From contig NZ_JADKSO010000001.1 in NCBI RefSeq assembly GCF_015351245.1, positions 62,001 to 126,000 on the forward strand: DNA of 64,000 nt, written 5' to 3'. Of the stretch, positions 45,263 to 62,528 are shown one piece after another. The notes beneath the pieces were generated by a model. That model saw only the letters and a list, made by a program, of their open reading frames with translations. It ran no database searches and was not told the DNA's origin. The first letter of the stretch is position 1. Each line of letters opens with the position of its first letter. The position numbers and the translations under genes are program-made. The stretch comes from Rathayibacter sp. VKM Ac-2879. GTDB taxonomy: Bacteria > Actinomycetota > Actinomycetes > Actinomycetales > Microbacteriaceae.

Positions 45263-46144
45263 TCAGCCCGTCGTCCGCGTCAGGATCGCGACGATGAACA
45301 GCGCCGCCCACAGACCGCCGCACACCAGAAGTCGCACGTTCCCGAGCACGATGTCCTCGGGAGTCGACGCCCGCCCCCGCTCGATGTCGAGCGCATACAG
45401 GAACAGCGCAGCGCCGAACGGCAGCACCGAGGCCATCGACAGCAGCGAGTTCTCGCCGTTGATGAACAGCGCCCACAGCGCATAGGAGATCATCGTCAGC
45501 GACGCCGCGACGGACCAGACGAAGCGCAGGTATCCCGGCGTATACACCGCGAGAGTCGTCCGGGTGTGGCTGTCCTCGCGCCCCTCGCTCTCCAGCTTCT
45601 CGGAGTAGCGCTTGCCGGCCACCATGAACAGCGAGCCCGACGAGACGGCGAGCAGGAACCACTGCGTCAGCGGGATGTCCGCGACCGCCGCGCCGGAGAT
45701 CGCGCGCAGCACGAATCCGCCGGCCACGATCAGGATGTCGAGCACCGGCTCGTGCTTGAGCCAGATGCAGTACGAGACCTGCATCACGAGGTACGCGGCG
45801 AGCGTGAGCGCGAACCACGTGTATCCGGCGAGGAAGGTCACGAGCATCGGCACGACCATCAGCACGAGGGAGGCGACCCACGCGACGCGCAGGGGCAGGT
45901 CGCCCGAGGCGATGGCCCGGAAGCGCTTCGTCGGGTGCAGGCGATCGGACTCGATGTCGAGGAGGTCGTTGAGCAGGTATCCACCCGAGGAGGCGAGGCT
46001 GAACGCGACCACCGCGAGGAGGCTGGCGAGGAGAATCGGCGGTTCGACGATGCGGGCCGAGGCAACGGGAGCGGCGAGCACGAGGACGTTCTTCAGCCAC
46101 TGTCGGGGACGCATGGCGGCGATCAGCGCGCGAGCGGTATTCAC
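45263..46144 (-). CDS. ubiA: Decaprenyl-phosphate phosphoribosyltransferase-like UbiA protein
   Basis: 293 aa, nine membrane helices. First Asp-rich motif SSGGYLLNDLLDIESDRLHPTKRFRAIASGDL matches the N-D-x-x-D-x-x-x-D-R-x-H-P-x-K-R-x-R-x-I-A form of Rv3806c, which adds 5-phosphoribose to decaprenyl phosphate, the first step to decaprenyl-phospho-arabinose. Second motif lies in VAGKRYSEKLESEGREDSHTRTTLAVYTPGYLRFVWS. The H-P-x-K-R-x-R signature separates it from quinone and heme UbiA enzymes. It starts at GTG and is divergent from gtrA-dprE1-dprE2 across 138 bases, which strengthens the assignment. Confidence 0.88.
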   Translation of the reverse strand: MNTARALIAAMRPRQWLKNVLVLAAPVASARIVEPPILLASLLAVVAFSLASSGGYLLNDLLDIESDRLHPTKRFRAIASGDLPLRVAWVASLVLMVVPMLVTFLAGYTWFALTLAAYLVMQVSYCIWLKHEPVLDILIVAGGFVLRAISGAAVADIPLTQWFLLAVSSGSLFMVAGKRYSEKLESEGREDSHTRTTLAVYTPGYLRFVWSVAASLTMISYALWALFINGENSLLSMASVLPFGAALFLYALDIERGRASTPEDIVLGNVRLLVCGGLWAALFIVAILTRTTG

Positions 46145-46217
46145 GGCGTCTCCCCCTTTGGAGAACAGGGCCGGCGGGGCGGCCGATCGGTTAGGTCACG
46201 GTGTCGCGGGGCCAACC

Positions 46218-46223
46218 TACAAT
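46218..46223 (+). promoter_or_regulatory. -10 hexamer of the gtrA-dprE1-dprE2 operon
   Basis: TACAAT, five of six bases of the consensus, lies 59 bases upstream of the gtrA start in the divergent gap; no clear -35 is seen. Confidence 0.45.
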
Positions 46224-46282
46224 CAGGGGGAACGTGCCGGATCCGCGCCGTTCCAGCGATCGACACCCTGGGGGAGGCTCGG

Positions 46283-46693
46283 ATGCGAACCGCCTCCCTG
46301 TACGTTTTCTTCGCGATCCTTGCAACGGCGGTCAACCTGGGCACCCAGATGCTCGCCGAACTCGTGCTGAGCGGCGGCTGGGCGACCCCGATCGCCGTGC
46401 TCTGCGGCACCCTGACGGGGGTGATCACGAAGTACGTCCTCGACAAGCGCTACATCTTCCGGCACGAGACGATGAATGCAGCACACGGCATCAAGACCTT
46501 CGTCCTCTACGGCGTGATGAGCGGCGTGACGACCCTCGTCTTCTGGGGCTTCGAGTTCGGTTTCGAGGCCCTGTTCGGCACCGACCTCGCCCGCTACACG
46601 GGGGCGGTGATCGGCTTGGCCATCGGCTACGCCGCCAAGTACTTCCTCGACAAGAACATCACCTTCCAAGGCCCCCGAGAGGAGCCCGCATGA
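46283..46693 (+). CDS. GtrA family membrane protein
   Basis: 136 aa with four membrane helices: LYVFFAILATAVNLGTQMLAELVL, WATPIAVLCGTLTGVITKYVLDKRYIF, IKTFVLYGVMSGVTTLVFWGFEFGFEALF and YTGAVIGLAIGYAAKYFLDKNITF. The paired K-Y-x-L-D-K-R/N-x-x-F ends are the GtrA hallmark. In M. tuberculosis the GtrA protein Rv3789 precedes dprE1 and dprE2 and is proposed to help handle or scaffold decaprenyl-phospho-arabinose synthesis. The same order occurs here, and the stop overlaps dprE1 by four bases. Confidence 0.88.
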   Translation: MRTASLYVFFAILATAVNLGTQMLAELVLSGGWATPIAVLCGTLTGVITKYVLDKRYIFRHETMNAAHGIKTFVLYGVMSGVTTLVFWGFEFGFEALFGTDLARYTGAVIGLAIGYAAKYFLDKNITFQGPREEPA

Positions 46694-47988
46694 CCGTCGC
46701 CGTCTCGTCGTGGGGGCTGCTCTCGCATGATCGGCACCGGGTCGTCGCCATCACGAGCGCCGAGCAGGCGCAGACCGAGCTGGCCCGCGGCGAGGGAGGC
46801 GTGGCCCGCGGCGCGGGCCGCAGTTACGGGGATGTCGCGCTCAACGGCGGCGGGGCGCTCTGGGACTTCAGCGGATTCGACCGGCTGCTGGGGTTCGAGG
46901 AGGAGACAGGGGTACTCCGCGCCGAGCCGGGCGTCCTCCTCAAGGACATCCAGGCCGTCTTCGCCCCCCGCGGCTGGATGCTGCCCGTCACCCCGGGCAC
47001 CAAGAACGTGACGCTCGCCGGCGCGATCGCAAACGACGTGCACGGCAAGAACCACTCCTCCGCGGGCACGTTCGGACGGCATCTGGTGTCGTTCACGCTC
47101 ATGCGCAGCGACGGCTCGTCGTCGCGCTGCACACCGACCGAGAACGTCGCGCTGTTCGAGGCGACGGTCGGCGGCCTCGGACTCACCGGCCTGATCGTCG
47201 AGGTCGAGCTGGCGCTCGCGCGTGTTCCCGGGCCGTGGCTCGTGACCGAGGACGTGCCCTTCGCGTCGCTCGAGCAGTACCTCGCGCTCGTCGACGAGTC
47301 GAGGGACGTCTTCGAGCACACGGTCGCGTGGATCGACGTGACCACGGGAGGCGGCCGGCGCGGCGTGTACTCGCGCGGCGACTCGACCGCCGCTCCCGAG
47401 CTGCACGTGACCCGCGGGCGCAGCGTACGCGTGCCGTTCGAGTTCCCGCTCTCGGTGGTCAACCGGGCGACGCTGCCGCTGCTCAACCGCGCGTACTACC
47501 GGCTGAAGGCGAGCCGCGCCGGCCGCTCGGTGCAGCACTACGAGCAGTTCTACTACCCGCTCGACGCGATCGAGGGCTGGAACGGCATGTACGGCCCGCG
47601 CGGCTTCTACCAGTACCAGAGCACGGTGCCGTGGGAGGGGGCGCTCGAGGTCACGCGTTCGATGCTCGCGACGATCGCCGCCTCGGGCACCGGCTCGTTC
47701 CTCGGGGTACTCAAGTCCTTCGGCGAGCTGGAGTCTCCGGGACTGTTGAGCTTCCCCGCGCCGGGCGTGTGCTTCGCGCTCGACTTCCCCCGCACCTCCG
47801 CCGCGCTCCCACTGTTCGAGCGCCTCGACGAGCTCGTGCTCGCCGTCGGCGGTCGTCTCTACCCCGCCAAGGACGCGCGCATGTCGCGCGAGATGTTCGA
47901 GGCCGGCTACCCGCGCCTCGCCGATTTCACCGCCCAGCGCGACCCGGGAATCTCCTCCGGCTTCTCGCGCCGAGTACTCGGGAGCTGA
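46690..47988 (+). CDS. dprE1: DprE1-like FAD oxidase (decaprenylphospho-ribose 2'-oxidase)
   Basis: 432 aa, vanillyl-alcohol-oxidase type flavoprotein. ARGEGGVARGAGRSYGDVALNGGGALWDFSGFDRLLGF is the FAD-binding segment, and TPGTKNVTLAGAIANDVHGKNHSSAGTFGRHLVSFTLMRSDG contains the G-x-x-x-x-D-V-H-G-K-N-H signature of DprE1. QFYYPLDAIEGWNGMYGPRGFYQYQ and GGRLYPAKDARMSREMFEAGYPRL also match. In a by-eye alignment, the Cys of the benzothiazinone site (PGWNICVDFP in M. tuberculosis) is Ala here (PGVCFALDFP). Together with dprE2 it converts the ribose to an arabinose form. Overlaps gtrA by ATGA. Confidence 0.88.
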   Translation: MTVAVSSWGLLSHDRHRVVAITSAEQAQTELARGEGGVARGAGRSYGDVALNGGGALWDFSGFDRLLGFEEETGVLRAEPGVLLKDIQAVFAPRGWMLPVTPGTKNVTLAGAIANDVHGKNHSSAGTFGRHLVSFTLMRSDGSSSRCTPTENVALFEATVGGLGLTGLIVEVELALARVPGPWLVTEDVPFASLEQYLALVDESRDVFEHTVAWIDVTTGGGRRGVYSRGDSTAAPELHVTRGRSVRVPFEFPLSVVNRATLPLLNRAYYRLKASRAGRSVQHYEQFYYPLDAIEGWNGMYGPRGFYQYQSTVPWEGALEVTRSMLATIAASGTGSFLGVLKSFGELESPGLLSFPAPGVCFALDFPRTSAALPLFERLDELVLAVGGRLYPAKDARMSREMFEAGYPRLADFTAQRDPGISSGFSRRVLGS

Positions 47989-47989
47989 C

Positions 47990-48739
47990 ATGACCACTGG
48001 AACCCCCTCGAAGATCGTCGTGGTCGGAGCGACCTCGGCCATCGCCGAGCGCACGTTGCGGCTCTGGCTCGGCACCGGAGCCCGCTCCGCGCTGCTGGTC
48101 GGGCGCGACTCCGCCCGGCTTGAGGCGCTCGCGACCGACCTGCGGGTGCGCTACCCCGCCGCCGATCTCGCCATCGAGGCCGTCGACCTCACCGATCCGG
48201 CCGCGATCGCCTCCGTGGTCGCCTCCTCGCTGACGGGCGGGGCACCCGACACCGTGCTGATCGCGCACGGCGCGATGACGAGCCAGGAGGAGGCGTCCGC
48301 CGACCTCGCCGTCGCCCGCGACGTGCTCGTGGTCACCGGAGTCTCGGTGGCGCTGTGGATGGAGGCGTACGCGAACGCGCTCGTCTCGGGCACCATCGGC
48401 GTGATCGGCTCGGTCGCCGGCGACCGCGGCCGCAAGACCAACTACGTCTACGGCTCCGCGAAGGGGCTCGTCGAGCGTTTCGCGCAGGGGCTCCAGCACC
48501 GCCTCGCCGGCTCTCGGCTCTCGGTCGTGCTGATCAAGCCGGGACCGACCGACACTCCGATGACCGCCCACCTCAAGCAGTCCGGCGCCTCACTCGCGTC
48601 GGTGGAGTCGGTGGCGAAGGACGTCGCTGCGGCCCTCTCGAGCGGCAGGCCCGTCGCCTACACCCCCGCGAAGTGGCGCGTCATCATGACGGTGATCACG
48701 CTGCTCCCAGCGCCTGTCTTCAACCGCCTCAACATCTGA
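47990..48739 (+). CDS. dprE2: DprE2-like SDR 2'-ketoreductase
   Basis: 249 aa short-chain dehydrogenase. KIVVVGATSAIAERTLRLWLGTGARSALLVGRD is the Rossmann start, with the G-A-T-S-A-I-A form characteristic of DprE2. The catalytic Ser-Tyr-Lys set lies in IGVIGSVAGDRGRKTNYVYGSAKGLVERFAQGLQHRL. IKPGPTDTPMTAH follows. The C-terminal amphipathic end MTVITLLPAPVFNRLNI is also as in DprE2. It reduces the keto intermediate from DprE1 to decaprenyl-phospho-arabinose. It begins one base after the dprE1 stop. Confidence 0.9.
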   Translation: MTTGTPSKIVVVGATSAIAERTLRLWLGTGARSALLVGRDSARLEALATDLRVRYPAADLAIEAVDLTDPAAIASVVASSLTGGAPDTVLIAHGAMTSQEEASADLAVARDVLVVTGVSVALWMEAYANALVSGTIGVIGSVAGDRGRKTNYVYGSAKGLVERFAQGLQHRLAGSRLSVVLIKPGPTDTPMTAHLKQSGASLASVESVAKDVAAALSSGRPVAYTPAKWRVIMTVITLLPAPVFNRLNI

Positions 48740-50468: not shown

Positions 50469-52403
50469 TTATGCGGGCGCGCCGATCGTGGACTCGTACT
50501 CCTCGGTGAGCCCGTGCGGCGTCTTCTCCCATTTGTGCGGGCTGAAGACGATCTGCCAGGCCGCGCGCCATGCCGCGATCGAGTGCAGCACCCAGTACAC
50601 CGGGTTCAGGAGCGCGAAGGCGGCGATGCGCCAGTTGTAGCGCTTCCACGCCGCGATTCCCGACACCACGATCATCAGGGCATTCGAGAACAGCATGTTC
50701 GTGGTGCCCGCGATGATGAGCCACTCCGGGATGTCGAGCCCGATGAATTGCACCCCGATGTAGGTGACGATCGTGAAGCCCAGCACGAGCGGGTAGAGGA
50801 GGAACGCCACCGGCGTGCCCATGATGAGCGCCACGAGGCTCAGCGAACCCAGGATCCCGTTGACCCGGAACCAGCGGATCGGGTGCCGCGTGTTCACCCC
50901 CGCGGTCATCATGTAGCCCTTGATCCAGCGGGTGCGCTGACGGATCCACGCGGGAACCTCCGCGCACGCCTCCTCCCAGGTGTTCGAGTTGACGACGCCG
51001 ACGCGGTAGCCGTGAGCGGCGACCCGCAGGCCCAGATCGGCGTCCTCGGTGACGTTGTACGGGTCCCACGCGCCCAGCTCCCGCAACACCCTCGTGTCGA
51101 AGTGGTTCGAGGTGCCGCCGAGCGGGATGGGGAGGTGCGACTGGTCGAGGCCAGGCAGCATCGCGCCGAACCAGTGCGCGTACTCGACCGCGAACATCCG
51201 GGTGAGCACGTTGTAGTCGGCGTTGAAGTAGCTCAGCGCGCCCTGGAGGCAGACGAGCTGCTTCTGCGACGGATCCACGTGCTCGCGCTCGAAGGCGTCG
51301 GCGCGGAACAGCCGCACGCACATGCGGAGCTGGTCGGGGTCGGGGCGGTCCTCGGCGTCGTAGATCACCACGAATTCGCCGCGGGCGAAGCTGAGGCCGT
51401 AATTGCACGCACGAGGCTTGGTCTGCGGGCCGCCGGGCGGCACGATGACCATGCGCACATACTCGGGCGGGTTCATCCTCCGCACCGCCGAGATGGTCTC
51501 GTCGTCGTCCGCCTCGAGCAGCACGAGCACCTCGAGCTTGGCCTGCGGATAGTCGAGGGCGCCGATGTTCACCAGCAGCTTGCTGATGATGTTCGCCTCT
51601 TTGTAGGCGGGGATGAGGATCGTGTAGACGGGCAGCTCCTCGTCGCCCATGCGGGGAGGCACCACGGGCAGGCCGCGCCGGCCGCGCTCGATCGACACCT
51701 CCTCCTCCCACGCACGCACCGAGCTCTGGTTGAGTGGGGCACGCAGCCCGGCGAGCGCCTTGAAGGCGATGTTCATCAAGAACAGGAGGTTCGCGGCAGC
51801 GAGCACGATCACGAACGTGATGCTGGGGGCGAGCACGGCCCCCACGATCACGATCGCCGCCACGACGAGCGGAGTGACCACCTGCCACCGCCGAAGGCCC
51901 GACTTCGCCGATTCGTCGCCGCTCCCGACGGCGAGGGAGTCGGCGGCCCCGAACAGCAGCGCCGCGCGGCAGGCGTTCTCGACGGCCTGGTAGATGTCCC
52001 AGTCGGTCGTGGTGCGCACGCCGACCACTGTGACGTCGAGGAGGGCGCGGGCCTCGGCGAGCATCTCCTCCGTCGGGGGCACGGAGGTGGCGATCACCCC
52101 GGTGCCGTCGGGCAGCACGCGCCAGGGCACCCAGCCCGCGCCGATGAGGGTTTCGGCGCCGATCCGGGCGAGCAGCTCGGCGGCAGGCGGCTCCTCGACG
52201 AGATCGAGCATCGGGGCGTCCCACTGTTCGGCGAGCGCCGCATACATCTCGCGGCGGGTGACAGCCTGGTCGATGATGAGGTGCCGACCGAGCAGGCCGC
52301 CCTCGCGCGCCTGGCGAGCGAGGGCCGTGTCGAGCTGCTCCTGCGTGACGAGGCCGCGGTCGAGGAGGATCTCGCCGACGCGCGCCGTTCGGGTGGTGCC
52401 CAT
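50469..52403 (-). CDS. GT2 polysaccharide synthase with N-terminal MshEN-like domain
   Basis: 644 aa. Residues about 8-70 carry two successive L-G-x-x-L...L-x-x-A-L-x-x-Q units (RVGEILLDRGLVTQEQLDTALARQ and LLGRHLIIDQAVTRREMYAALAEQ), the pattern of MshEN domains, which bind c-di-GMP. Two membrane helices (about 180-225) precede a processive GT2 domain: YTILIPAYKEANIISKLL, LEADDDET, VVIYDAEDRPDPDQL (DxD), TEDADLGLR and IRQRTRWIKGYM (QxxRW). Four more helices follow. There is no PilZ domain. Last gene of a three-gene operon with a BcsB-like protein. The ATG is set by family alignment and lies 2 bases after the preceding stop. Sugar unknown. Confidence 0.88.
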   Translation of the reverse strand: MGTTRTARVGEILLDRGLVTQEQLDTALARQAREGGLLGRHLIIDQAVTRREMYAALAEQWDAPMLDLVEEPPAAELLARIGAETLIGAGWVPWRVLPDGTGVIATSVPPTEEMLAEARALLDVTVVGVRTTTDWDIYQAVENACRAALLFGAADSLAVGSGDESAKSGLRRWQVVTPLVVAAIVIVGAVLAPSITFVIVLAAANLLFLMNIAFKALAGLRAPLNQSSVRAWEEEVSIERGRRGLPVVPPRMGDEELPVYTILIPAYKEANIISKLLVNIGALDYPQAKLEVLVLLEADDDETISAVRRMNPPEYVRMVIVPPGGPQTKPRACNYGLSFARGEFVVIYDAEDRPDPDQLRMCVRLFRADAFEREHVDPSQKQLVCLQGALSYFNADYNVLTRMFAVEYAHWFGAMLPGLDQSHLPIPLGGTSNHFDTRVLRELGAWDPYNVTEDADLGLRVAAHGYRVGVVNSNTWEEACAEVPAWIRQRTRWIKGYMMTAGVNTRHPIRWFRVNGILGSLSLVALIMGTPVAFLLYPLVLGFTIVTYIGVQFIGLDIPEWLIIAGTTNMLFSNALMIVVSGIAAWKRYNWRIAAFALLNPVYWVLHSIAAWRAAWQIVFSPHKWEKTPHGLTEEYESTIGAPA

Positions 52404-52405
52404 GC

Positions 52406-54088
52406 TCAGCCTCCGAGCCGCTCGTAGATGACGTAGAGACCCTGGCGGAACACCGGGCGGTAGCGCGTGTCGAAGGAGGAGTCGCGCGTGATCGCGTCGT
52501 AGACCAGGTCGGCGACTCCCGTCTCGCTGAGCTCGGGGGCGTCGGCGGTCGTCACGAACACCCACTTGTCGTGCGTGTAGGGCGCGGCGAGGGCCTCATC
52601 GAAGAGCTCGCCGGCCGAGCGGTTGTCGTACTCGGCCAGCGGGATGCCGATCTCGGGGAGCAGGGCGTTGCCGGCGGCGCTCTCGTCGATGAGGATGCCG
52701 CCTCCGTCGTAGTGGTCGTGGAGGAAGCGGGCGGCGGCCGTGGCGCCCGACGCCTCCTTGAGCGCGACATAGCCCGTGGCCTCAGCGATCACGGCGTTGC
52801 GGTTGAGGTCCTGCGCCCACCAGGCCGTCTGAGCGGCGAGCAGCGCCACGACCATGCCGAGAGCGGCGACTCCCCAGCGTGGGATGCGCCGCAAGGCGTC
52901 GACCAGCACCGCCGCGAGCACCGCCAAGAACGGCAGCACCGAGAGCGCGTAGCGGTTGTTCCACCAGTTCGTGGGCAGGGTGTGGTCGTTGTTCATGTGG
53001 GTCTGGCCGAGGTAGAGGCTGAGCAGCGAGAACGCGTAGGAGACGATCATGAGCCAGATCACGAGGGCGTCGTCGGAGATGCCACGACGCCACGCGAGCA
53101 CGAGGGCGCCGCCGATCCCGAGAGCCACGGTGAGCAGTCCCGAGGTCTCGAGCACGGCCCAGTTGTACGACCAGAGCGTCAGCCCCGCGTTGCCCTGGTA
53201 GGCGAGCAGCCCCGCATCGGCCACCGCCTTCTGCAGGTTGGCGGCCGAGTACTGCCCGTTCATGAACTCGAGCGGGTTGGCGTAGACGGCGTAGTTGTAG
53301 ACGAGCCACCAGAGGATGGCGATCAGCGGGAGGATCCCGAACGCCGCGGCCATCTTGACCGCGTAGACGATCGAGCGTTTGCGCCGCCACGCCACGATCA
53401 GGACGACCAGGGTCCCGCCGACCACGAGAACCCAGCCCTCATAGCGTGAGAGGGTCGCGGCGGCGGCAGGAAGCCCCGAGAACACCATCATCTCGCCGGC
53501 GCTGAGCGAGCGACGGCTGGTGATCCAGTGCGCCAGCCCCGCGAAGCAAGCGACCATCGTGACGATGAGCACCGGCTCCGTCATCGCGGTCGTGAACGCG
53601 TACAGCACGCCCGGATTCGCCAGCACGAGCAGCACCGCGGTGATCCGGCCCGCGCGGAGGTGCCCCACGCGCGCCGAGATCCGGTAGACGCCGCACGCGG
53701 TGCCGGCGAGACAGATCATCCCGAGCAGCCCCGCGGCCCAGCCGGTGTGCCAGAGCCAGAGCGACTGGGCGAACGGGATGAGCACGAGGCTCGGGACGGG
53801 CAGCCACACCGTGCCGAGCTGGCTGAACCCTGGGGCCTTCGAGTCGACGATGCGCCGCGAGATCGAGAGGTGGCTCTGCGTGTCGGCGTAGGCGAGGTTG
53901 ATGCCGGAGGAGGTGGTCACCAGGCAGGCGACGAAGCCCACTGTCAGCGCCAGGACGAGCACGACCACCGTGCCGGGAACCTGGCGGCCGGTCACCGGCT
54001 CTCCGAGCGCCTCCCACGCACGCCGCCACCAGCGACGGCGGGAGGTGGTGGAGGCGCGGCGCGGCGGCGCGGCGAGCGCGGCGGTCAT
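52406..54088 (-). CDS. Multi-span membrane protein, GT39/GT83-like
   Basis: 560 aa with about eleven membrane helices. After a basic tail and the first helix, the large loop INLAYADTQSHLSISRRIVDSKAPGFSQLGTVWLPVPSLV has the acidic D-T-Q-S-H pair and following aromatic loop seen in polyprenyl-phosphate-dependent GT-C glycosyltransferases (ArnT/GT39 type). LSRYEGWVLVVGG and LGQTHMNNDHTLPTNWWNNRYALSVLPFLAVL also fit. The C-terminal 130 residues form a soluble domain. It overlaps the BcsB-like gene by four bases and ends 2 bases before the GT2 synthase. I infer that it decorates or starts the polymer. Confidence 0.8.
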   Translation of the reverse strand: MTAALAAPPRRASTTSRRRWWRRAWEALGEPVTGRQVPGTVVVLVLALTVGFVACLVTTSSGINLAYADTQSHLSISRRIVDSKAPGFSQLGTVWLPVPSLVLIPFAQSLWLWHTGWAAGLLGMICLAGTACGVYRISARVGHLRAGRITAVLLVLANPGVLYAFTTAMTEPVLIVTMVACFAGLAHWITSRRSLSAGEMMVFSGLPAAAATLSRYEGWVLVVGGTLVVLIVAWRRKRSIVYAVKMAAAFGILPLIAILWWLVYNYAVYANPLEFMNGQYSAANLQKAVADAGLLAYQGNAGLTLWSYNWAVLETSGLLTVALGIGGALVLAWRRGISDDALVIWLMIVSYAFSLLSLYLGQTHMNNDHTLPTNWWNNRYALSVLPFLAVLAAVLVDALRRIPRWGVAALGMVVALLAAQTAWWAQDLNRNAVIAEATGYVALKEASGATAAARFLHDHYDGGGILIDESAAGNALLPEIGIPLAEYDNRSAGELFDEALAAPYTHDKWVFVTTADAPELSETGVADLVYDAITRDSSFDTRYRPVFRQGLYVIYERLGG

Positions 54089-56154
54089 CGCGGGGTGTCG
54101 GGGGAGGGGGAGGTCGGCGGCTGGTCGGCGTCGGCCGCGGGGTCCGCGTCGGCCGCGGGGTCCGCGCCTGGCTCTTCGGCGGCGGCGCGCTCCTGGGCGT
54201 CGACGTACGCGGCCACCCGGCGCGAACGCCTCCGTCGTGCCAGCGCGCCGAGCAGGATGAGCCCCCCGATCACCACGACGGCGACCACGAACCAGATCGC
54301 CTGGGAGGAGTAGTCGTCCTTCACCTGTGCCTGGGGGGTGATCTCGTTGCTGTCGATCTGCACCGGATCCTTGGCGGCGGAACCGCTGACCGCGAGGTTC
54401 CCCGAGAGCACCGTCCATCCTTCTCGGCCTGCGTAGCGGGCGATCGACGCCTGAAGGGCGGACGAGTCGGTCGCGCCCTGATCGGGGCTCCACCCGCCGA
54501 GCAGCACGAGGTCGCGGCCATCGGTCGAGAAGGCTTCGAGGGCCGCGTAGGGCGCTTGCGTGCCGACCCCGTAGTCGAGGCGGGAGGAGTCGATCGCGGT
54601 GAACGGGGCGAGGCGCAGCGGGGTGCGCAGGGCCTCCGCCTCGTTCTCGCCGGCGCCGACGACCAGGCCCGAGCGGTCCGAGCCGATGAAGTCATCGAGG
54701 CCCACGACCGAGACCGCGAGGGGGTGGGAGTCGACCCGCTGCAGCGCCGCAATCAGCTCGCCCGCGCTGCGCAGCGCGTCGGCGCCCGTCGCCGAGGAGC
54801 CGAAGGCGACGAGCAGCTCGCCTCCGAACGCCTGCGGGAAGCGCCCGAAGCCGGGTGCGGCCGACTCGCCGCGCACGCCCGTGACGCGGGAGGAGCCTCC
54901 GTCGACGAAGAACTCGATCGGCACAGAGTCGGCCGAGCCGATGCACAGGCCGTCGCTCGCCCGCACCGCCGAGAGGCGCACCGAGAGTCCGTTCGAGGAG
55001 GCGAGTTGTCCCGTGGGCACCGAGAGTTCGAGGTCGACGGCGGTGTCCGTGCCGAGCACGGTCGAGCCGATCAGGAAATCGTTCCAGTAGACGTTCGCGG
55101 TCGCGGTGATGCCCTGCGGGACGGCCGAGTGTGTGCCGAGGAGGTGCAGCGCGACCGACGAGACGGGGCCGCCGAAGGCCGACTGGGTGATGGTGGTGAA
55201 GCTGGCGGACGAACCGGTGCTCGAGAGCGCGATCCGATCGGCGCCGAAGTCGGCCAGCGAGTGCTCGAGCGAGCTCGAGGGGATCACCTTCTGCGAGAGA
55301 CCGGTGGTGGTGGCGCTCGAGGCCAGGCCCGCGTATTCGCTGCCGAGCGCGGCGCCGGCGGGAGCGAGGCCCGCCTCCGCTCCGGTGAGGGTGAGGACCG
55401 GCACGCCTCCGTCGTCACTGATCGACGTGACGACATCGCCGTCGCCCGTCTCGAACCGGACGATGCGACCGGTCGCCGCGTCGAGCGCGGGGCGGCCCTC
55501 GGTCGCGCTCTGCTCGCTCACGGCGAGGTCGACGCCGGAGGGGTAGCGCGAGGCGAGCGAGGCGGTGGCCGCCAATCCCGCGGCCCGCAGCGCATCGTCG
55601 GCGCCGTCGGGCACGACGATCGACACGGCGGTGACGGCGTCGGCGAAGAAGTCGCCCACGGTGGTCGGAGGGGTGGGCGAGCCCTCGCCGATCACGCCAA
55701 AGCTCGAGAGGGTGAGCGAGCGGCCGGCGACCTCGCAGAGCGCGCCGGTGCCGGTGGTGCCGCCGGTGAGCTGGAAGCCGAGCGCGAGGACTCCATCGAC
55801 GACGTCTCCGGCCTGCACCGGGATGTCGAGAGTCGTGGCGGTGCCCTCAGCGCTCAGCACGGTGCGCCCCGAGACGACGACGGAGAGCGAGCCCGCGAGG
55901 GCGGCATCGGCGCGGACCGAGGCGAGCACTCGCGTCGGCGTGGTCCCGGCGGCGATGGGGAGGGTGAGGTAGCGGATCGACGCGCCGGCGGTGACGGTGA
56001 GGGAGGCGTCGCTCGTCGCGGCCTGCACGACCGCACCGGTCGCCGGGTCGATGACGTCGGCGGCTGCCGCTCCCTGCGCCGAGGCGAGGGCGAGGCCGAG
56101 GCACAGCACTCCGGTGACGGCGGCGCTGAACGGACGGAGGAGGGAGGAGTGCAT
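54085..56154 (-). CDS. BcsB-like cell-surface accessory protein
   Basis: 689 aa. A Sec signal peptide (SAAVTGVLCLGLALASAQGAAAA) is followed by a large beta-rich outside region with two similar halves: LTVTAGASIRYLTLPIAAGTTPTRVLASVRADAAL and IALSSTGSSASFTTITQSAFGGPVSSVALHLLGT. This arrangement and SVTVWDFLIGSTVLG-like text (VYWNDFLIGSTVLGTD) resemble cellulose synthase subunit BcsB. One helix near 625-650 (AIWFVVAVVVIGGLILLGALA) and a charged cytoplasmic tail with PAADAD repeats end the protein. First gene of the operon. It probably guides the polymer out of the GT2 synthase. Confidence 0.78.
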   Translation of the reverse strand: MHSSLLRPFSAAVTGVLCLGLALASAQGAAAADVIDPATGAVVQAATSDASLTVTAGASIRYLTLPIAAGTTPTRVLASVRADAALAGSLSVVVSGRTVLSAEGTATTLDIPVQAGDVVDGVLALGFQLTGGTTGTGALCEVAGRSLTLSSFGVIGEGSPTPPTTVGDFFADAVTAVSIVVPDGADDALRAAGLAATASLASRYPSGVDLAVSEQSATEGRPALDAATGRIVRFETGDGDVVTSISDDGGVPVLTLTGAEAGLAPAGAALGSEYAGLASSATTTGLSQKVIPSSSLEHSLADFGADRIALSSTGSSASFTTITQSAFGGPVSSVALHLLGTHSAVPQGITATANVYWNDFLIGSTVLGTDTAVDLELSVPTGQLASSNGLSVRLSAVRASDGLCIGSADSVPIEFFVDGGSSRVTGVRGESAAPGFGRFPQAFGGELLVAFGSSATGADALRSAGELIAALQRVDSHPLAVSVVGLDDFIGSDRSGLVVGAGENEAEALRTPLRLAPFTAIDSSRLDYGVGTQAPYAALEAFSTDGRDLVLLGGWSPDQGATDSSALQASIARYAGREGWTVLSGNLAVSGSAAKDPVQIDSNEITPQAQVKDDYSSQAIWFVVAVVVIGGLILLGALARRRRSRRVAAYVDAQERAAAEEPGADPAADADPAADADQPPTSPSPDTPR

Positions 56155-56280
56155 CAGGCGATGCTCCGATCGGCGAACGGGAGCGCCGGGACGATGCCGG
56201 GCTCGAAGACCAAGAACCGAACGGTCGCCGCTCCCTCGGCGAGGCCGGGCGAGCGGTACGCAGCGGAGCCCGTTCTCAGC

Positions 56281-58617
56281 TCAGTCTAAGGAGGCGATCG
56301 CGGACGATCCGGTGGTGTGCAATCGGTGTTCCGCCCCCGTTCGAGTGTCAGGACGACCGAACAGGTATCCCTGGACATCGGTCACGCCCAGCTCGCCGAG
56401 AATCGCCACGGTGGCGTCGTCCTCTGCTCCTTCGACGATCACGCGGATGCCGACCGCGACCGCGAAACCCTGGAGCGCTCGCACGATCTCTTGCTTGCGC
56501 TGCTCCGTCGCGAGGTCGGCGAGGAGCGTGCGATCGAGCTTGAGGATGTCGAGCGGAAAAGTGGCGACGGCCGCGACCGAGGTGCCTTTCGCGCCGTAGT
56601 CGTCGAGAGCGATCAGCAGACCGGCGTCGCGCAGGCGCTGAGCCTGATCGCGGAGCGAGTCGTCGGCCTCGTCGACGGAGCGCTCGTTGAGCTCGACGCA
56701 CACGCGGATCTCCGGGAACCGCTCCGGGAGTCCGGCGAAGTAGCCGCCCAGCCGCTCGACCGCGAGCTGCTCGAGGTCGACGTTGACGGCCATGCAGTCG
56801 ATGCCCGGCACCCAGGCACGGAAGCTCACCGCGGCGTGCATCGCCTTCTCGACGACCTGCATCGTGAGCTCGTCGAGCAGGCCGAGCTCGCGCACCGCCG
56901 ACACGAGGGCGGGAGGGTCGATGGAGCCGAGCGCCGGGTCTTCGAGGCGTACGAGCGCCTCGAAGGCCCAGATCCGGCCGGACGAGAGCTCGACCACGGG
57001 CTGGAACGCGACATCGAGCGACTCCTCGCGCACCGCCCGGGCGGCGGCCGCCCGAAGCGGGTCCCGGACGACGGAGGTGACGTCGAGAGCGCTCGCCCGC
57101 TCGCGCCCGGAGCGGCTCCTCGTCCGCTTGAGCGCGAGCATGCTGCGATCGGCCTCGATCACGATCGTCGACGGGTCCGCCTCCTCGTGCGCCGAGAACG
57201 CGACTCCCACGCTCACCACCGGAGCGAGGGTGTCGCCCTCGACGGTCTCGGGCGCACTGATCATCTCGACGAGCAGTTGGGCGCGCCGTCGGGCGTCGTC
57301 GGCCGAGCGCAGACCGCGCAGGATCACGACGAACTCGTCACCGCCCACTCGCGCCGCGAACCCGCCGTCCGCGTCGACCGCCTCGCCGAGACGCCTACCG
57401 ACCATGCGCAGCATCTTGTCGCCGACGTGGTGTCCGCGACCGTCGTTGAGGTCCTTGAAGTCGTCGAGGTCGAGGAACAGCACCGCGATCCCCTCGAACG
57501 GACGCCGGTCGCGGTTGGCGACGGCGAGCGCCGACTGGAACGCCCTCCGGTTGGGCAGTCCCGTCAAGGCGTCACGGTCGACGTAGCGGCGCAGCGACTC
57601 CACATCGTCGCGCGCGCTCAGGGTGTCGGTGCCCATGTGCGCGAGCGCGTCGAGGATCTGCTCGTCCTCGGTGTCGAACGGCACGGCGCTCATCCGCTGG
57701 GAGGCGACGAGGTAGCGGCTCCTGCCACCCGGCAGCAGCAGCGCCGAGCCGATCTCGTTGCCCGAGGCCGGCTCGTCGCGCACCTCGAGCACGTCGGCGG
57801 CGATGGAGGTGCGCGCGTGCGCGACCAGCGCCCGCTCCGCCTCCGAGACGCCTCCCCAGGGCAGCTCGAGCGCTGCGTCGAGCACACCCGCCAGCCGGCG
57901 CCGCACGCGCCGCACCTCGATCCGCTTCGCGACACTGAACACGAGGGCGCCCGCGACCAGCACGAGCATCGGGCTCTGCTCGAGCCCCGGAGTCGCCGCC
58001 ATCGCCGGCACGACGGCGCTGTCGAGGAACCACAGCGCGGTGGCGAAGAGCCACAGCAGGAGGAACAGAGCGGCCACACGGCGCGGGACGAGCGCGCCGG
58101 TCCCCACCTCCCCGTCGAGGCCCCAGCGCCCCCGCTGGCGCACGAAGTCGACGGCCAGCACGAAGGCCAGGAACGCGGCCGTCGCGAGGAGGAGCGCCAC
58201 GGGAACCCACACCACCCCGCGCAGAGCGTCGTAGAGGACGAGATACGCGAACGTCGCGAGGGAGCCGAGCCCCGTGATGTAGCCGGCGACCGCCGCGTTG
58301 CGCGTCTTCACGAGCTGGACGAGGAGCGTCGCAGCCGTCCAGATCCCGAGGACCCGCAGAGGGTCGGCGTCGGGGGAGACGATCACCACGAGAGCGACGC
58401 CGACGCCCGAGAGCGGCATCCCCGAGCGACGCCCCAGCTCGATGCGGAAGGAGGCGGTCAGCGCCACGGCCACGCCGAAGGCGACGACGTACGCCCAGCT
58501 CTGCGGAGGCTCCGCGATCAGCAGCACAGCGGAGCGCGCGATCACGGCGAGCGCGACCAGGCTGAGCACACCCGCGAAGACCACATCGAGGACGTCGAGT
58601 CCGTGCGAACGCTGCAT
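56281..58617 (-). CDS. GGDEF-EAL c-di-GMP synthase/phosphodiesterase, membrane
   Basis: 778 aa. About seven membrane helices occupy residues 10-235. GGDEF domain roughly 330-495: DALTGLPNRRAFQSAL, FLDLDDFKDLNDGRGHHVGDKMLRMVGRRL and RVGGDEFVVIL, with the active G-G-D-E-F intact. EAL domain roughly 515-765: FEALVRLEDP, AVNVDLEQLA, CVELNERSV, ALDDYGAKGTS, ILKLDRTLL, IVEGAEDD and VQGYLFGRP, so the metal and catalytic residues appear kept. Both activities are possible; which dominates is unknown. It precedes the BcsB/GT39/GT2 operon on the same strand. Leaderless TAGCAT lies 6 bases before the ATG. Confidence 0.92.
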   Translation of the reverse strand: MQRSHGLDVLDVVFAGVLSLVALAVIARSAVLLIAEPPQSWAYVVAFGVAVALTASFRIELGRRSGMPLSGVGVALVVIVSPDADPLRVLGIWTAATLLVQLVKTRNAAVAGYITGLGSLATFAYLVLYDALRGVVWVPVALLLATAAFLAFVLAVDFVRQRGRWGLDGEVGTGALVPRRVAALFLLLWLFATALWFLDSAVVPAMAATPGLEQSPMLVLVAGALVFSVAKRIEVRRVRRRLAGVLDAALELPWGGVSEAERALVAHARTSIAADVLEVRDEPASGNEIGSALLLPGGRSRYLVASQRMSAVPFDTEDEQILDALAHMGTDTLSARDDVESLRRYVDRDALTGLPNRRAFQSALAVANRDRRPFEGIAVLFLDLDDFKDLNDGRGHHVGDKMLRMVGRRLGEAVDADGGFAARVGGDEFVVILRGLRSADDARRRAQLLVEMISAPETVEGDTLAPVVSVGVAFSAHEEADPSTIVIEADRSMLALKRTRSRSGRERASALDVTSVVRDPLRAAAARAVREESLDVAFQPVVELSSGRIWAFEALVRLEDPALGSIDPPALVSAVRELGLLDELTMQVVEKAMHAAVSFRAWVPGIDCMAVNVDLEQLAVERLGGYFAGLPERFPEIRVCVELNERSVDEADDSLRDQAQRLRDAGLLIALDDYGAKGTSVAAVATFPLDILKLDRTLLADLATEQRKQEIVRALQGFAVAVGIRVIVEGAEDDATVAILGELGVTDVQGYLFGRPDTRTGAEHRLHTTGSSAIASLD

Positions 58618-58755: not shown

Positions 58756-60012
58756 ATGCCCCTCTTCACCGCCGTCGCCGCAGAGCTCACCCGCCGCAGC
58801 CTCTTCGCCACTCCCCTTGGCGCGACCCTGCTCACCTCCTCCCCCGCCCCGTCCGACCCGGTGCCGATGTCGGCCGTCGGCTCCCCCGGCGGTGTCGCCG
58901 CGCTCGACGCGACCGGCTCGATCCCCCTCCCGCAACTGCCGGACGAGGTGCTCACCGACACCGGCGAGCGACCCGTCGCCAAGGGCGAGCTGGTCTACAA
59001 CGTGCACGACTACGGAGCGACCGGCGACGGCACGACCGATGACCTGCCGGCCATCGACGCCGCGATCGACGCAGCCGTCGCCTCGTTCGGAGGCGTCGTC
59101 TACTTCCCGCGAGGCATCTACCGCATCGCCGGCTCGATCGGCCGCGCGTCGGGACTCTCGAGCGTCGTCTTCCGCGGCGCAGGCGAGCTCTCGACCCGGG
59201 TGCAGTCGCTGACGAACGCTCCCGTCGTCAGCGGCGCTTTCACCTCCTGCCGTCTCGACAATCTGATCCTCGATGCGAACGGCCTGGGCTCGCCCTGCAT
59301 CTCGGCGCACCTCGACAAGTCGGTGCTCGACTCCCTTCAGCTCTACGGCTGGACCGACTACGGCATGCGCTTGAACGACGGCACCTTCGGCGACCTGGGG
59401 CTGCTCAACCGCATCCAGCGCTGCAGCATCGACCAGTGCACGGGGACCGGAATCTGGGCGAGCTACCGGATGATCGACTCCTGGATCGTCGAGAACAACG
59501 TCGGCGCCAGCTACGCCGACATCTCGGTCGAGGGCGGCCCGTTGCGCATCCTCGGGAACCATCTCGACGGCTCGCCCCAGCTCAATATCGAGCTCCGCGG
59601 CAATCGGAGGATCACGATCGCGAACAACATCATGGAGGGCGCGCGCCGCCAGTCTCTCGTGTACACGATGCCGCCGTGGCTCGACGAGGACCTCGCGCAG
59701 ATCCAGATCGTGGGCAACGCGATCAGCAACGGAGGAAAAGGCGCGGCGAATACCTACCCCGCCATCCAGATCCTCGGAGTCTCGCCGAGCGCGCGCACCG
59801 CCGGCTTCAGCGTCACCGGCAACATCTTCGCCTGCGAGGACGACGGCGCCGGCTGGACGCACTGCGTGGAGGCGGTGAACGCGCGGGCGGTCTCGGTGCT
59901 CGGCAACCAGTGGGCGACCGGGCATCTGAGCGCGCACCCGGTGCGCGCCGTGGGCAGCACTGCCTACGAGGTGATCGGGAACCACGGCGACAACGCGGTG
60001 ACGACGGTCTGA
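58756..60012 (+). CDS. Right-handed beta-helix protein (pectate-lyase-3/GH28-like)
   Basis: 418 aa. TRRSLFATPLGATLLTSS is a twin-arginine-like signal. VYNVHDYGATGDGTTDDLPAIDAAIDAAVASFGGVVYFPRGIYRIAGSI is the hallmark start of pectate_lyase_3/glycosyl hydrolase 28-like folds. The rest shows short repeated strands with Asn ladders (LDNLILDANGLGSPC, VENNVGASYADISVEGG, RITIANNIMEGARR, FSVTGNIFACEDD). Such proteins cut or bind acidic or complex polysaccharides. Divergent from the GGDEF-EAL gene at the edge of the exopolysaccharide locus, so it might act on that polymer; this is inference. Catalytic residues cannot be fixed by eye. Confidence 0.8.
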   Translation: MPLFTAVAAELTRRSLFATPLGATLLTSSPAPSDPVPMSAVGSPGGVAALDATGSIPLPQLPDEVLTDTGERPVAKGELVYNVHDYGATGDGTTDDLPAIDAAIDAAVASFGGVVYFPRGIYRIAGSIGRASGLSSVVFRGAGELSTRVQSLTNAPVVSGAFTSCRLDNLILDANGLGSPCISAHLDKSVLDSLQLYGWTDYGMRLNDGTFGDLGLLNRIQRCSIDQCTGTGIWASYRMIDSWIVENNVGASYADISVEGGPLRILGNHLDGSPQLNIELRGNRRITIANNIMEGARRQSLVYTMPPWLDEDLAQIQIVGNAISNGGKGAANTYPAIQILGVSPSARTAGFSVTGNIFACEDDGAGWTHCVEAVNARAVSVLGNQWATGHLSAHPVRAVGSTAYEVIGNHGDNAVTTV

Positions 60013-61427: not shown

Positions 61428-62528
61428 TCAGCGCGGCGGCGCGCTCGTGTTGCCGCGGTGGAAGACGGCCTCGAAGCACACCGGCTCGGCCTCGTCGCCC
61501 GCGAGCAGCACGATCACCGCTCGCCCCGCCGCACGGCCCTTCTCGACCGCCGGCTGCACCATCGTCGTGAGGTCGTAGCCGCTCGCGAGGCCCGGCACCT
61601 GCACCCCGTCGAAGCCGACCACCGAGAGGTCGTCGGGAACCCGCAGCCCGAGCTGCTCGGCCGCGAGCACGACTCCCGCCGCCAGCAAATCGCTCTGCGC
61701 GACGATCGCGGTCGGAGGCTCGGCCACCCCGAGCAGCGCCAGGCCCGCGGCGAGACCCTCGTCGACCGCGCTCGCCGCCGCCGTGACCGCCACCACCGGG
61801 CCGAAGACGTCGCGCACTCCCCGCAGCCGATCGACCGCCGTGATGCTCGAGCTCGCTTCCCACTCTTCGGGCAGCACTCCGCGCGGACGATCCTTCGCGA
61901 ACGGGAGCGTGACCGCCGCGACCCGGCGATGGCCCAGTTCGTGCAGGTGCTCGGCCAGCGTGCGGCTCGCCTCCCGGTTGTCGAGCGAGACGACGGCCGC
62001 CCCGAGGTCCGAGAGGCCTTCGACCACCACCACCGGCACCCCTCTGCGCTTCAGCACCGCGACGGAGTCGTCGACCGAGGGGCTGCAGCCCACCAGGACC
62101 ATGGCGTCGACCGGAGCCGTCGCGAGCAGGCCCGAGCCCCCCTCCGTGTCGGTGAGGAGGAGGATGCCGGCGTCGACACCGCCGAGCACGTCGGCGATGC
62201 CGTCGAGCATCGCGATCTTGATCGGGTCGCGGAAGGCGTGCAGGACCCGCTCGTCCACGACGACTCCGACGATGCCCGAGCGACCCCGGCGCAGCGACTG
62301 CGCACGAGGATCCGGGCCCGCGTAGTCGAGCTCGGCGGCCGCACGTAGCACGCGCTCGCGCGTCTCGGGTGAGATGGGTCCCCCGCTGAAGGCGAGGGAG
62401 GCGGTCGACGGCGAGACGCCGGCACGGGCGGCGACGCGCGCGAGGGTCGGTCGCAGAGCCTGGAGGGCATGCGGCGGGCGAGGGTCCGGAGCGTCCACGG
62501 CCGGCACGTCGTCAGGCTCTGCGTCCAC
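61428..62528 (-). CDS. LacI-family transcriptional regulator
   Basis: 366 aa. After a 25-residue Pro/Asp-rich tail comes the LacI helix-turn-helix (PTLARVAARAGVSPSTASLAFSGGPISPETRERVLRAAAELDYAGPDPRAQSLRRGRSGIVGVVV), then a periplasmic-binding-protein-like ligand domain with LVGCSPSVDDSVAVLKRRGVPVVVVEG and FDGVQVPGLASGYDLTTMVQP. The usual hinge Leu-Ala is L-R-R-G here. The GTG start is set by GAGGAG upstream. It is divergent from the MFS gene across 174 bases containing two perfect palindromes, so it is likely to repress that transporter and itself. Effector unknown. Confidence 0.9.
   Translation of the reverse strand: MDAEPDDVPAVDAPDPRPPHALQALRPTLARVAARAGVSPSTASLAFSGGPISPETRERVLRAAAELDYAGPDPRAQSLRRGRSGIVGVVVDERVLHAFRDPIKIAMLDGIADVLGGVDAGILLLTDTEGGSGLLATAPVDAMVLVGCSPSVDDSVAVLKRRGVPVVVVEGLSDLGAAVVSLDNREASRTLAEHLHELGHRRVAAVTLPFAKDRPRGVLPEEWEASSSITAVDRLRGVRDVFGPVVAVTAAASAVDEGLAAGLALLGVAEPPTAIVAQSDLLAAGVVLAAEQLGLRVPDDLSVVGFDGVQVPGLASGYDLTTMVQPAVEKGRAAGRAVIVLLAGDEAEPVCFEAVFHRGNTSAPPR

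Follow-up and report, generated by a model that had tools for sequence, protein, structure and literature searches.

A glycosyltransferase with an N-terminal MshEN domain in a four-gene cassette of Rathayibacter, and the link of that domain to GGDEF proteins across genomes

The stretch of DNA analysed here (the window) comprises 64,000 nucleotides of Rathayibacter sp. VKM Ac-2879, positions 62,001 to 126,000 of contig NZ_JADKSO010000001.1. From 58617 to 50469, on the minus strand, it carries a cassette of four genes, which encode in this order a GGDEF-EAL protein, a BcsB-like protein, a membrane protein resembling glycosyltransferases of the GT-C type, and a family 2 glycosyltransferase (GT2) with an MshEN domain, the last of these bearing two motifs for cyclic di-guanosine monophosphate (c-di-GMP; Table 1). 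An earlier reading of this DNA from its letters (the sequence-only reading) had pointed out this set and the intact GGDEF-EAL gene adjoining it, and the gene positions and motifs bear it out. The GGDEF-EAL protein has intact RVGGDEF and EALVR motifs and about seven hydrophobic stretches N-terminal of GGDEF; no RxxD I-site was found ahead of its GGDEF motif. The same reading had also spoken of one overlapping operon of the other three genes. These are tightly packed: the ATG of the GT-C-like gene overlaps the BcsB stop, and the GT2 gene starts 2 bases past the GT-C stop. The GGDEF-EAL gene ends 126 base pairs (bp) before the BcsB-like start, and its co-transcription with them is possible. For GT2, the ATG at 52403, with GGAGG immediately ahead of it, is a likelier start than the GTG at 52565 of the open reading frame (ORF) noted before. 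Promoter and terminator scans of the window gave nothing exceeding chance, and no DNA match to the window was found among plasmids.

Table 1. Features of the cassette and its neighbourhood (window positions; aa, amino acids)
Feature	Position	Strand	Basis or remark
GGDEF-EAL membrane protein, 778 aa	56281..58617	-	Pfam GGDEF and EAL; probable local diguanylate cyclase/phosphodiesterase
GGDEF domain, residues 347-500	57118..57579	-	Pfam, 118.9 bits
EAL domain, residues 524-756	56350..57048	-	Pfam, 162.5 bits
BcsB-type extracytoplasmic partner, 689 aa, single C-terminal membrane helix	54085..56154	-	fold and profile
GT-C-like membrane protein, about 10 membrane helices	52406..54088	-	sub-threshold PMT_2; GT39 homologue; GT2 adjacency
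Processive GT2 polysaccharide synthase with N-terminal MshEN, 644 aa	50469..52403	-	Pfam PF13641, model, PDB matches
MshEN N-subdomain, two 24-residue c-di-GMP motifs, residues 8-60	52224..52382	-	NF053729
MshEN C-subdomain, residues 62-144	51972..52220	-	PF05157
GT2 catalytic domain, residues 260-496 (D300, DAED, TED, Q..RW)	50916..51626	-	PF13641
WEKTxHG stretch, residues 625-631, candidate gating loop	50511..50531	-	conservation in 39 sequences
Beta-helix, pectate-lyase-like protein, divergent from the GGDEF-EAL gene	58756..60012	+	PF12708, 53.1 bits (cut-off 27)
UbiA prenyltransferase, flavin adenine dinucleotide (FAD) oxidase and short-chain dehydrogenase/reductase (SDR) genes	45263-48739		PF01040, PF01565, PF00106

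The GT2 protein matches Pfam PF13641 at 94 bits, and its D, TED and QxxRW signatures and synthase fold are all present, the DxD-type signature reading DAED. Across 39 aligned sequences including that of the window, D300, D349, E351, D352, T452-E453-D454, Q489 and W493 are invariant and R492 is nearly so. W625, K627, T628, H630 and G631 are invariant in the same alignment, and on this conservation the WEKTxHG stretch is a candidate gating loop. An AlphaFold model (pLDDT 91.0, pTM 0.90) finds its best PDB matches among hyaluronan and cellulose synthases. We rejected two familiar identities for this enzyme. As NfrB, the full-length profile NF008411 gives 23.4 bits against a cut-off of 1170 and matches the MshEN part only, which here is N-terminal; as the cellulose synthase BcsA, NF008558 gives 33.9 bits against a cut-off of 992, and there is no PilZ domain. 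Indeed, Pfam finds no PilZ match in any of the four cassette proteins, in keeping with the PilZ-free synthase described earlier.

The N-terminus of the synthase is matched by two curated libraries. NCBIfam NF053729 (c-di-GMP-binding, MshE-related) aligns with residues 8-60 at 52.8 bits (cut-off 38, E 2.5e-14), and Pfam PF05157 (MshEN) with residues 62-144 at 29.7 bits (cut-off 23.1, E 6.4e-7); the two-unit MshEN domain proposed earlier is thus recovered by profile. In the model, the N-subdomain has helices at 9-15, 21-34, 38-44 and 50-60. The published MshEN motif, RLGxx(L/V/I)(L/V/I)xxG(L/V/I)(L/V/I)xxxxLxxxLxxQ, occurs in two copies 5 residues apart (PMC5013675; here and below, statements from the literature are those of the excerpts available of each paper). 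Motif I of the window protein has R8, V9, G10, G17, L24, L28 and Q31, with V in place of L at position 2, and motif II has L37, L38, G39, Q46, M53, L57 and Q60, departing from the consensus at position 1 (L instead of R), position 10 (Q where the turn Gly is expected) and position 17 (M instead of L). The key residues of both motifs, Gly-3 and Gln-24 (G10, Q31, G39 and Q60), are all kept. There is binding precedent for one of the four off-consensus positions (V9, L37, Q46 and M53): L at motif position 1 is tolerated, because GSPII-B of PilF has L there and binds at 6 nM, for which the consensus was extended to (R/K/L)LG (PMC11731258). For Q46 we saw none. In PilF GSPII-A, non-binding accompanies the loss of both Gln plus further changes (PMC12002112). 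The six closest relatives (89-91% GT2 identity) have Gly (5/6) or Ala (1/6) at the Q46 site, so that Q46 is peculiar to the window, which in this respect departs slightly from what is usual in its clade. Further afield, a Chloroflexota-type group (L011, L012, L013, L016 and L023) keeps the motifs with the second Gln changed to Leu (AEL or AKL versus AEQ), and two Paenibacillus GT2 proteins (L073 and L086) have at least three motif-like units at the N-terminus, suggestive of a duplication of one half of the MshEN repeat.

We then compared the presence of MshEN on the synthase with that of GGDEF domains (PF00990, E <=0.001) in 151 GT2-bearing genomes. Eighty of these are those of the best-scoring 80 of 589 loci confirmed in a scan of GTDB contigs, which is not a random sample. 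Another 51 come from the family of G001 (Pseudoclavibacter caeni), where 54 of 398 genomes have a homologue of the window GT2 (P0001) at E <1e-60, 3 of them already among the 80; the last 20 are further Actinomycetota with GT2. MshEN was scored with a profile built from 30 sequences outside Microbacteriaceae, 28 of which lie within the 151 genomes, and also, separately, by a residue criterion, namely at least three of the four key residues and more than 30 bits. Weak GGDEF matches (L030, L056, L069 and L140) were counted as GGDEF-bearing, and L009, whose GT2 is broken by Ns, was tabulated as lacking MshEN and excluded from the tree tests. At 36 bits or more, GGDEF is present in 62/62 MshEN-bearing genomes; by the residue criterion it is present in 59/59, with 33 genomes having GGDEF without MshEN. 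By either measure, none of the 59 GGDEF-less genomes has MshEN. The sequence-only reading had named the same synthase N-terminus in genomes without any GGDEF protein as evidence against it, and the only borderline case is G202 (L107/L166), which scores 39.1 bits with NF053729 (cut-off 38) and 35.5 with our profile and has 0/4 key residues. Incomplete metagenome-assembled genomes could yield only false exceptions to the link, and none occurred. This one-way link, from MshEN on the synthase to GGDEF in the genome, is among the strongest new points of the analysis.

Fisher p-values disregard kinship and were not used. The GT2 tree requires no fewer than 10 changes of MshEN and 14 of GGDEF. A Pagel-type comparison favours linked change (likelihood ratio 23.0, p 1.3e-4, from one starting point and with a midpoint root), and when GGDEF alone was simulated on the tree at fitted rates, 0 of 3000 kept runs were free of tips with MshEN and no GGDEF, the mean being 20.2 such tips. 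Transfer of the cassette weakens these tree tests, because a gene tree is used for a genome trait.

Loss of the domain in Microbacteriaceae is seen in two grades. In the first, the helix pattern is kept and Gly and Gln are gone (e.g. L159-L169). In the second, found in 13 genomes, the window protein is matched only from residue 59-87 onwards. Their N-subdomain is therefore missing or past recognition, although much of the C-subdomain is still there; ten of the 13 GT2 ORFs measure just 552-582 aa, and GGDEF is absent from all 13 genomes. The 26 Bacteroidota rows have no MshEN (0/26) and mostly no GGDEF (absent in 24/26). GGDEF-less genomes thus retain the synthase while MshEN has decayed or gone, and this loss of the sensor with retention of the synthase suggests that MshEN is a genuine switch.

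Seventeen Microbacteriaceae genomes have an intact MshEN-GT2, and their c-di-GMP signalling sets are very small, which is another of the strongest new points. NF053729 domains were found on these synthases only, one per genome, or two where GT2 itself is present twice (two genomes); PilZ is found in 0/17, and the number of GGDEF domains ranges from 1 to 6. The synthase is therefore the only receptor of the MshEN or PilZ type found in the closest relatives, HD-GYP, BldD-type and I-site receptors lying outside this count. All 17 keep the Gly and Gln key residues. In 14/17 of the fetched stretches GT2 has a GGDEF gene nearby, against 0.23 expected by chance; taking L118, the other GT2 copy of G165, raises this to 15/17. 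The figure is 0/10 for the family members that have GGDEF but a decayed domain. The placement of the GGDEF gene varies: a GGDEF-EAL gene may stand upstream of BcsB (e.g. L144) or directly after GT2 (L007), and in L149-L153 separate EAL and GGDEF genes adjoin a beta-helix gene. Four genomes (G001, G280, G084 and G400) have one GGDEF and one EAL domain each. In G001 and G280 both domains are in one protein beside the cassette and no other GGDEF was found, an arrangement that is apparently a minimal circuit; in G084 the enzyme is on a different contig from the cassette. As regards gene number, two-copy GT2 genomes are G102 (L117/L156), G165 (L118/L158) and G126 (L165), both copies bearing MshEN in G102 and G165, and in G135 a 119-aa ORF (L146, 6715-7074) with 93% identity to the GT2 C-terminus (residues 548-633) lies near the full gene as a partial duplicate.

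For the BcsB-like protein (P0003), Pfam BcsB (PF03170) gives no match. Its model (pLDDT 84.8, pTM 0.79) has as its top 22 PDB matches BcsB chains or chains of cellulose-synthase complexes, with template-modelling scores of 0.34-0.58 by query length. Its Geobacillus homologue (P0006) matches PF03170 at 43.4 bits, and profiles seeded by P0003 alone or P0006 alone each converge on 71 ORFs, the P0006 set including the window gene. Fold and profile thus support a BcsB-type protein, as had been claimed from the sequence. The GT-C-like label fared less evenly: a membrane protein does stand beside GT2, but its Pfam PMT_2 score of 18.2 bits is under the cut-off of 26.1, as are those of nine relatives (at most 24.4). 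A homologue in Geobacillus is annotated as GT39. Among the neighbours, the beta-helix protein is possibly an enzyme acting on the polymer; it has homologues at the locus in 10 relatives (L144-L153), five of which have separate EAL and GGDEF genes alongside. The UbiA, FAD oxidase and SDR genes resemble a decaprenyl-phosphate-pentose cluster (DprE1/DprE2-type), and UbiA and SDR homologues lie near GT2 in 11 relatives.

The sequence-only reading had called this a Gram-positive machine, which it is not specifically: the set is present in Bacteroidota, Alphaproteobacteria, Chloroflexota and others, and a Gram-positive-only set is thereby ruled out. The best 80 loci span Actinomycetota, Chloroflexota, Acidobacteria, Gemmatimonadetes, Aquificota, Bacteroidota, Synergistaceae, Bacillota and Proteobacteria. 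In 114/131 loci GT2 has a GT-C gene no more than 300 bp away on its own strand, and in 62/131 a BcsB gene within 3 kb, the misses in both counts including contig ends and short loci; the GT-C profile was expanded from 49 to 162 ORFs over four rounds, so that it may have drifted towards other membrane proteins. On a Geobacillus plasmid classed as conjugative (L001, CP128455.1), genes for a sugar nucleotidyltransferase, BcsB, MshEN-GT2 and GT39 stand in a row, and the cassette can therefore travel. A similar gene set is carried by a Hyphomicrobiales plasmid.

From these observations we consider it probable that the cassette works as a self-contained machine for exopolysaccharide, with c-di-GMP controlling it locally. 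The GGDEF-EAL protein would set the local c-di-GMP level, and c-di-GMP would bind the four-helix bundle of MshEN, which would then shift against its own C-subdomain and the glycosyltransferase domain and so open the active site. The polymer would be extruded through the synthase, guided by BcsB, and the GT-C-like protein may act as a side-chain transferase, attaching side sugars outside the membrane with polyprenyl phosphates as donors. The sequence-only reading was right on content and, on present evidence, on the most likely function. Several points weigh against local c-di-GMP control of this kind. Motif II of the window has Q46 for the turn Gly and M53 for Leu, and the PilZ domain of the Gram-positive Romboutsia synthase RiGT2 keeps its key residues and did not bind c-di-GMP in the reported assays (PMC10374906). 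The 36-bit line was set after the scores had been seen, and 28 of the 62 positives had trained the profile. When compared by sign test, independent pairs never disagree, yet their number is too small to reach significance. By the profile criterion, 30 genomes with GGDEF and GT2 lack MshEN, and therefore the synthase can dispense with this control. The cassette of G400 has no GGDEF-EAL gene at the locus, its EAL domain being about 611 kb from GT2, and the GT-C assignment is sub-threshold.

The substitutions in motif II and the RiGT2 precedent would suit an MshEN domain retained without binding c-di-GMP, and decayed domains do survive, among other places in clades II of the family, so a domain can stay when it does not bind. 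Yet the window keeps all four key residues, as do its 17 relatives with the domain; recognisable MshEN occurs only alongside GGDEF, and in 15 of the 17 a GGDEF gene is nearby. We therefore regard a non-binding domain as very unlikely. It is less far-fetched, if still unlikely, that MshEN binds c-di-GMP made by other cyclases, the neighbouring GGDEF-EAL protein being a bystander or mainly a phosphodiesterase. The G400 locus, the 126-bp gap in the window, the EAL and GGDEF genes that in L149-L153 stand by the beta-helix gene and not upstream of BcsB, and the 2-6 GGDEF domains of most clade members would all fit, but the proximity of GGDEF to GT2 in 15/17 relatives far exceeds chance (the 0.23 having been computed for the 14/17 count), and G001 and G280 have no further GGDEF that we could find.

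Binding could also have the opposite outcome, c-di-GMP inhibiting the synthase or steering assembly rather than activating. The present evidence does not indicate the sign of the effect, and the family members that keep the synthase without the domain could have gained freedom from inhibition or constitutive activity alike; the known c-di-GMP-controlled exopolysaccharide synthases with which we compared it are, however, activated in the accounts available, and we think inhibition or steering quite unlikely. Nor do we expect, although we give it some weight, that the cassette makes an envelope glycan or a glycolipid instead of a free exopolysaccharide, GT2 and GT-C building wall-linked material. 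UbiA, FAD-oxidase and SDR genes, of the polyprenyl-phosphate-sugar kind, lie some 2-5 kb away and near GT2 in the 11 relatives, whereas the BcsB-fold partner and the likeness of GT2 to hyaluronan and cellulose synthases speak against this, as does the absence of the UbiA set from the fetched stretches of L007, L117, L118 and L158.

Beyond the preferred reading of the cassette as a c-di-GMP-controlled exopolysaccharide machine, we propose tentatively, as an idea with nearly even chances, that the recognisable c-di-GMP system of these Microbacteriaceae has shrunk to very few enzymes (a single GGDEF and a single EAL domain in some species) and one receptor, MshEN-GT2, in some of them encoded adjacent to the enzyme, and that across phyla the receptor half of the domain, its N-subdomain, is lost from the synthase where the messenger is missing. 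If true, nature would here offer a minimal c-di-GMP circuit, and the synthases would document how a receptor decays once its messenger is lost. Networks of c-di-GMP are usually too redundant for one enzyme to be assigned to one output; with apparently one GGDEF-EAL protein, no PilZ and one MshEN, G001 and G280 open this idea to single-gene deletions. The cassette also supplies a likely c-di-GMP receptor for the actinobacterial family Microbacteriaceae, and relatives with and without MshEN are ready comparisons for the gating of the synthase.

The fusion of MshEN to a glycosyltransferase has already been stated (PMC5013675). In the open-licence literature, supplementary tables lying outside it, we found no description of the N-terminal MshEN-GT2/GT-C/BcsB cassette or of its joint loss, and no open-licence paper that brings together c-di-GMP, Microbacteriaceae, exopolysaccharide and GGDEF. 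One of the nearest known systems is NfrB/NfrA of E. coli (NGR polysaccharide, phage N4 receptor), which likewise has GT2 and MshEN in one polypeptide. It is c-di-GMP-dependent with a dedicated diguanylate cyclase, DgcJ; NfrB binds c-di-GMP at about 1 uM, substitution of a motif Gly abolishes or strongly reduces its function, and Gram-positive homologues are rare, e.g. in Eggerthella lenta (PMC8669469, PMC8669472). It differs in that its MshEN is C-terminal, that of the window being N-terminal, and in that its partners are NfrA and YbcH, with no GT-C in the accounts available. The PssA-E system of Listeria and YdaJKLMN of Bacillus are alike in being Gram-positive GT2 systems for c-di-GMP-controlled exopolysaccharide, and PssD of Listeria is a BcsB orthologue (PMC4125290, PMC7064775). 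Their receptor does not form part of the synthase but is a distinct protein of the GGDEF type, PssE (which has an I-site) or YdaK. The mixed-linkage glucan synthase BgsA of Sinorhizobium is a GT2 enzyme with a built-in c-di-GMP-binding region other than PilZ, but this region is another kind of C-terminal tail and not MshEN (PMC5567048). Finally, BcsA-BcsB shares with the window cassette a processive GT2, a BcsB partner and a c-di-GMP-binding domain, predicted in the case of the window, but in BcsA that domain is a C-terminal PilZ, for which the window synthase has no match.

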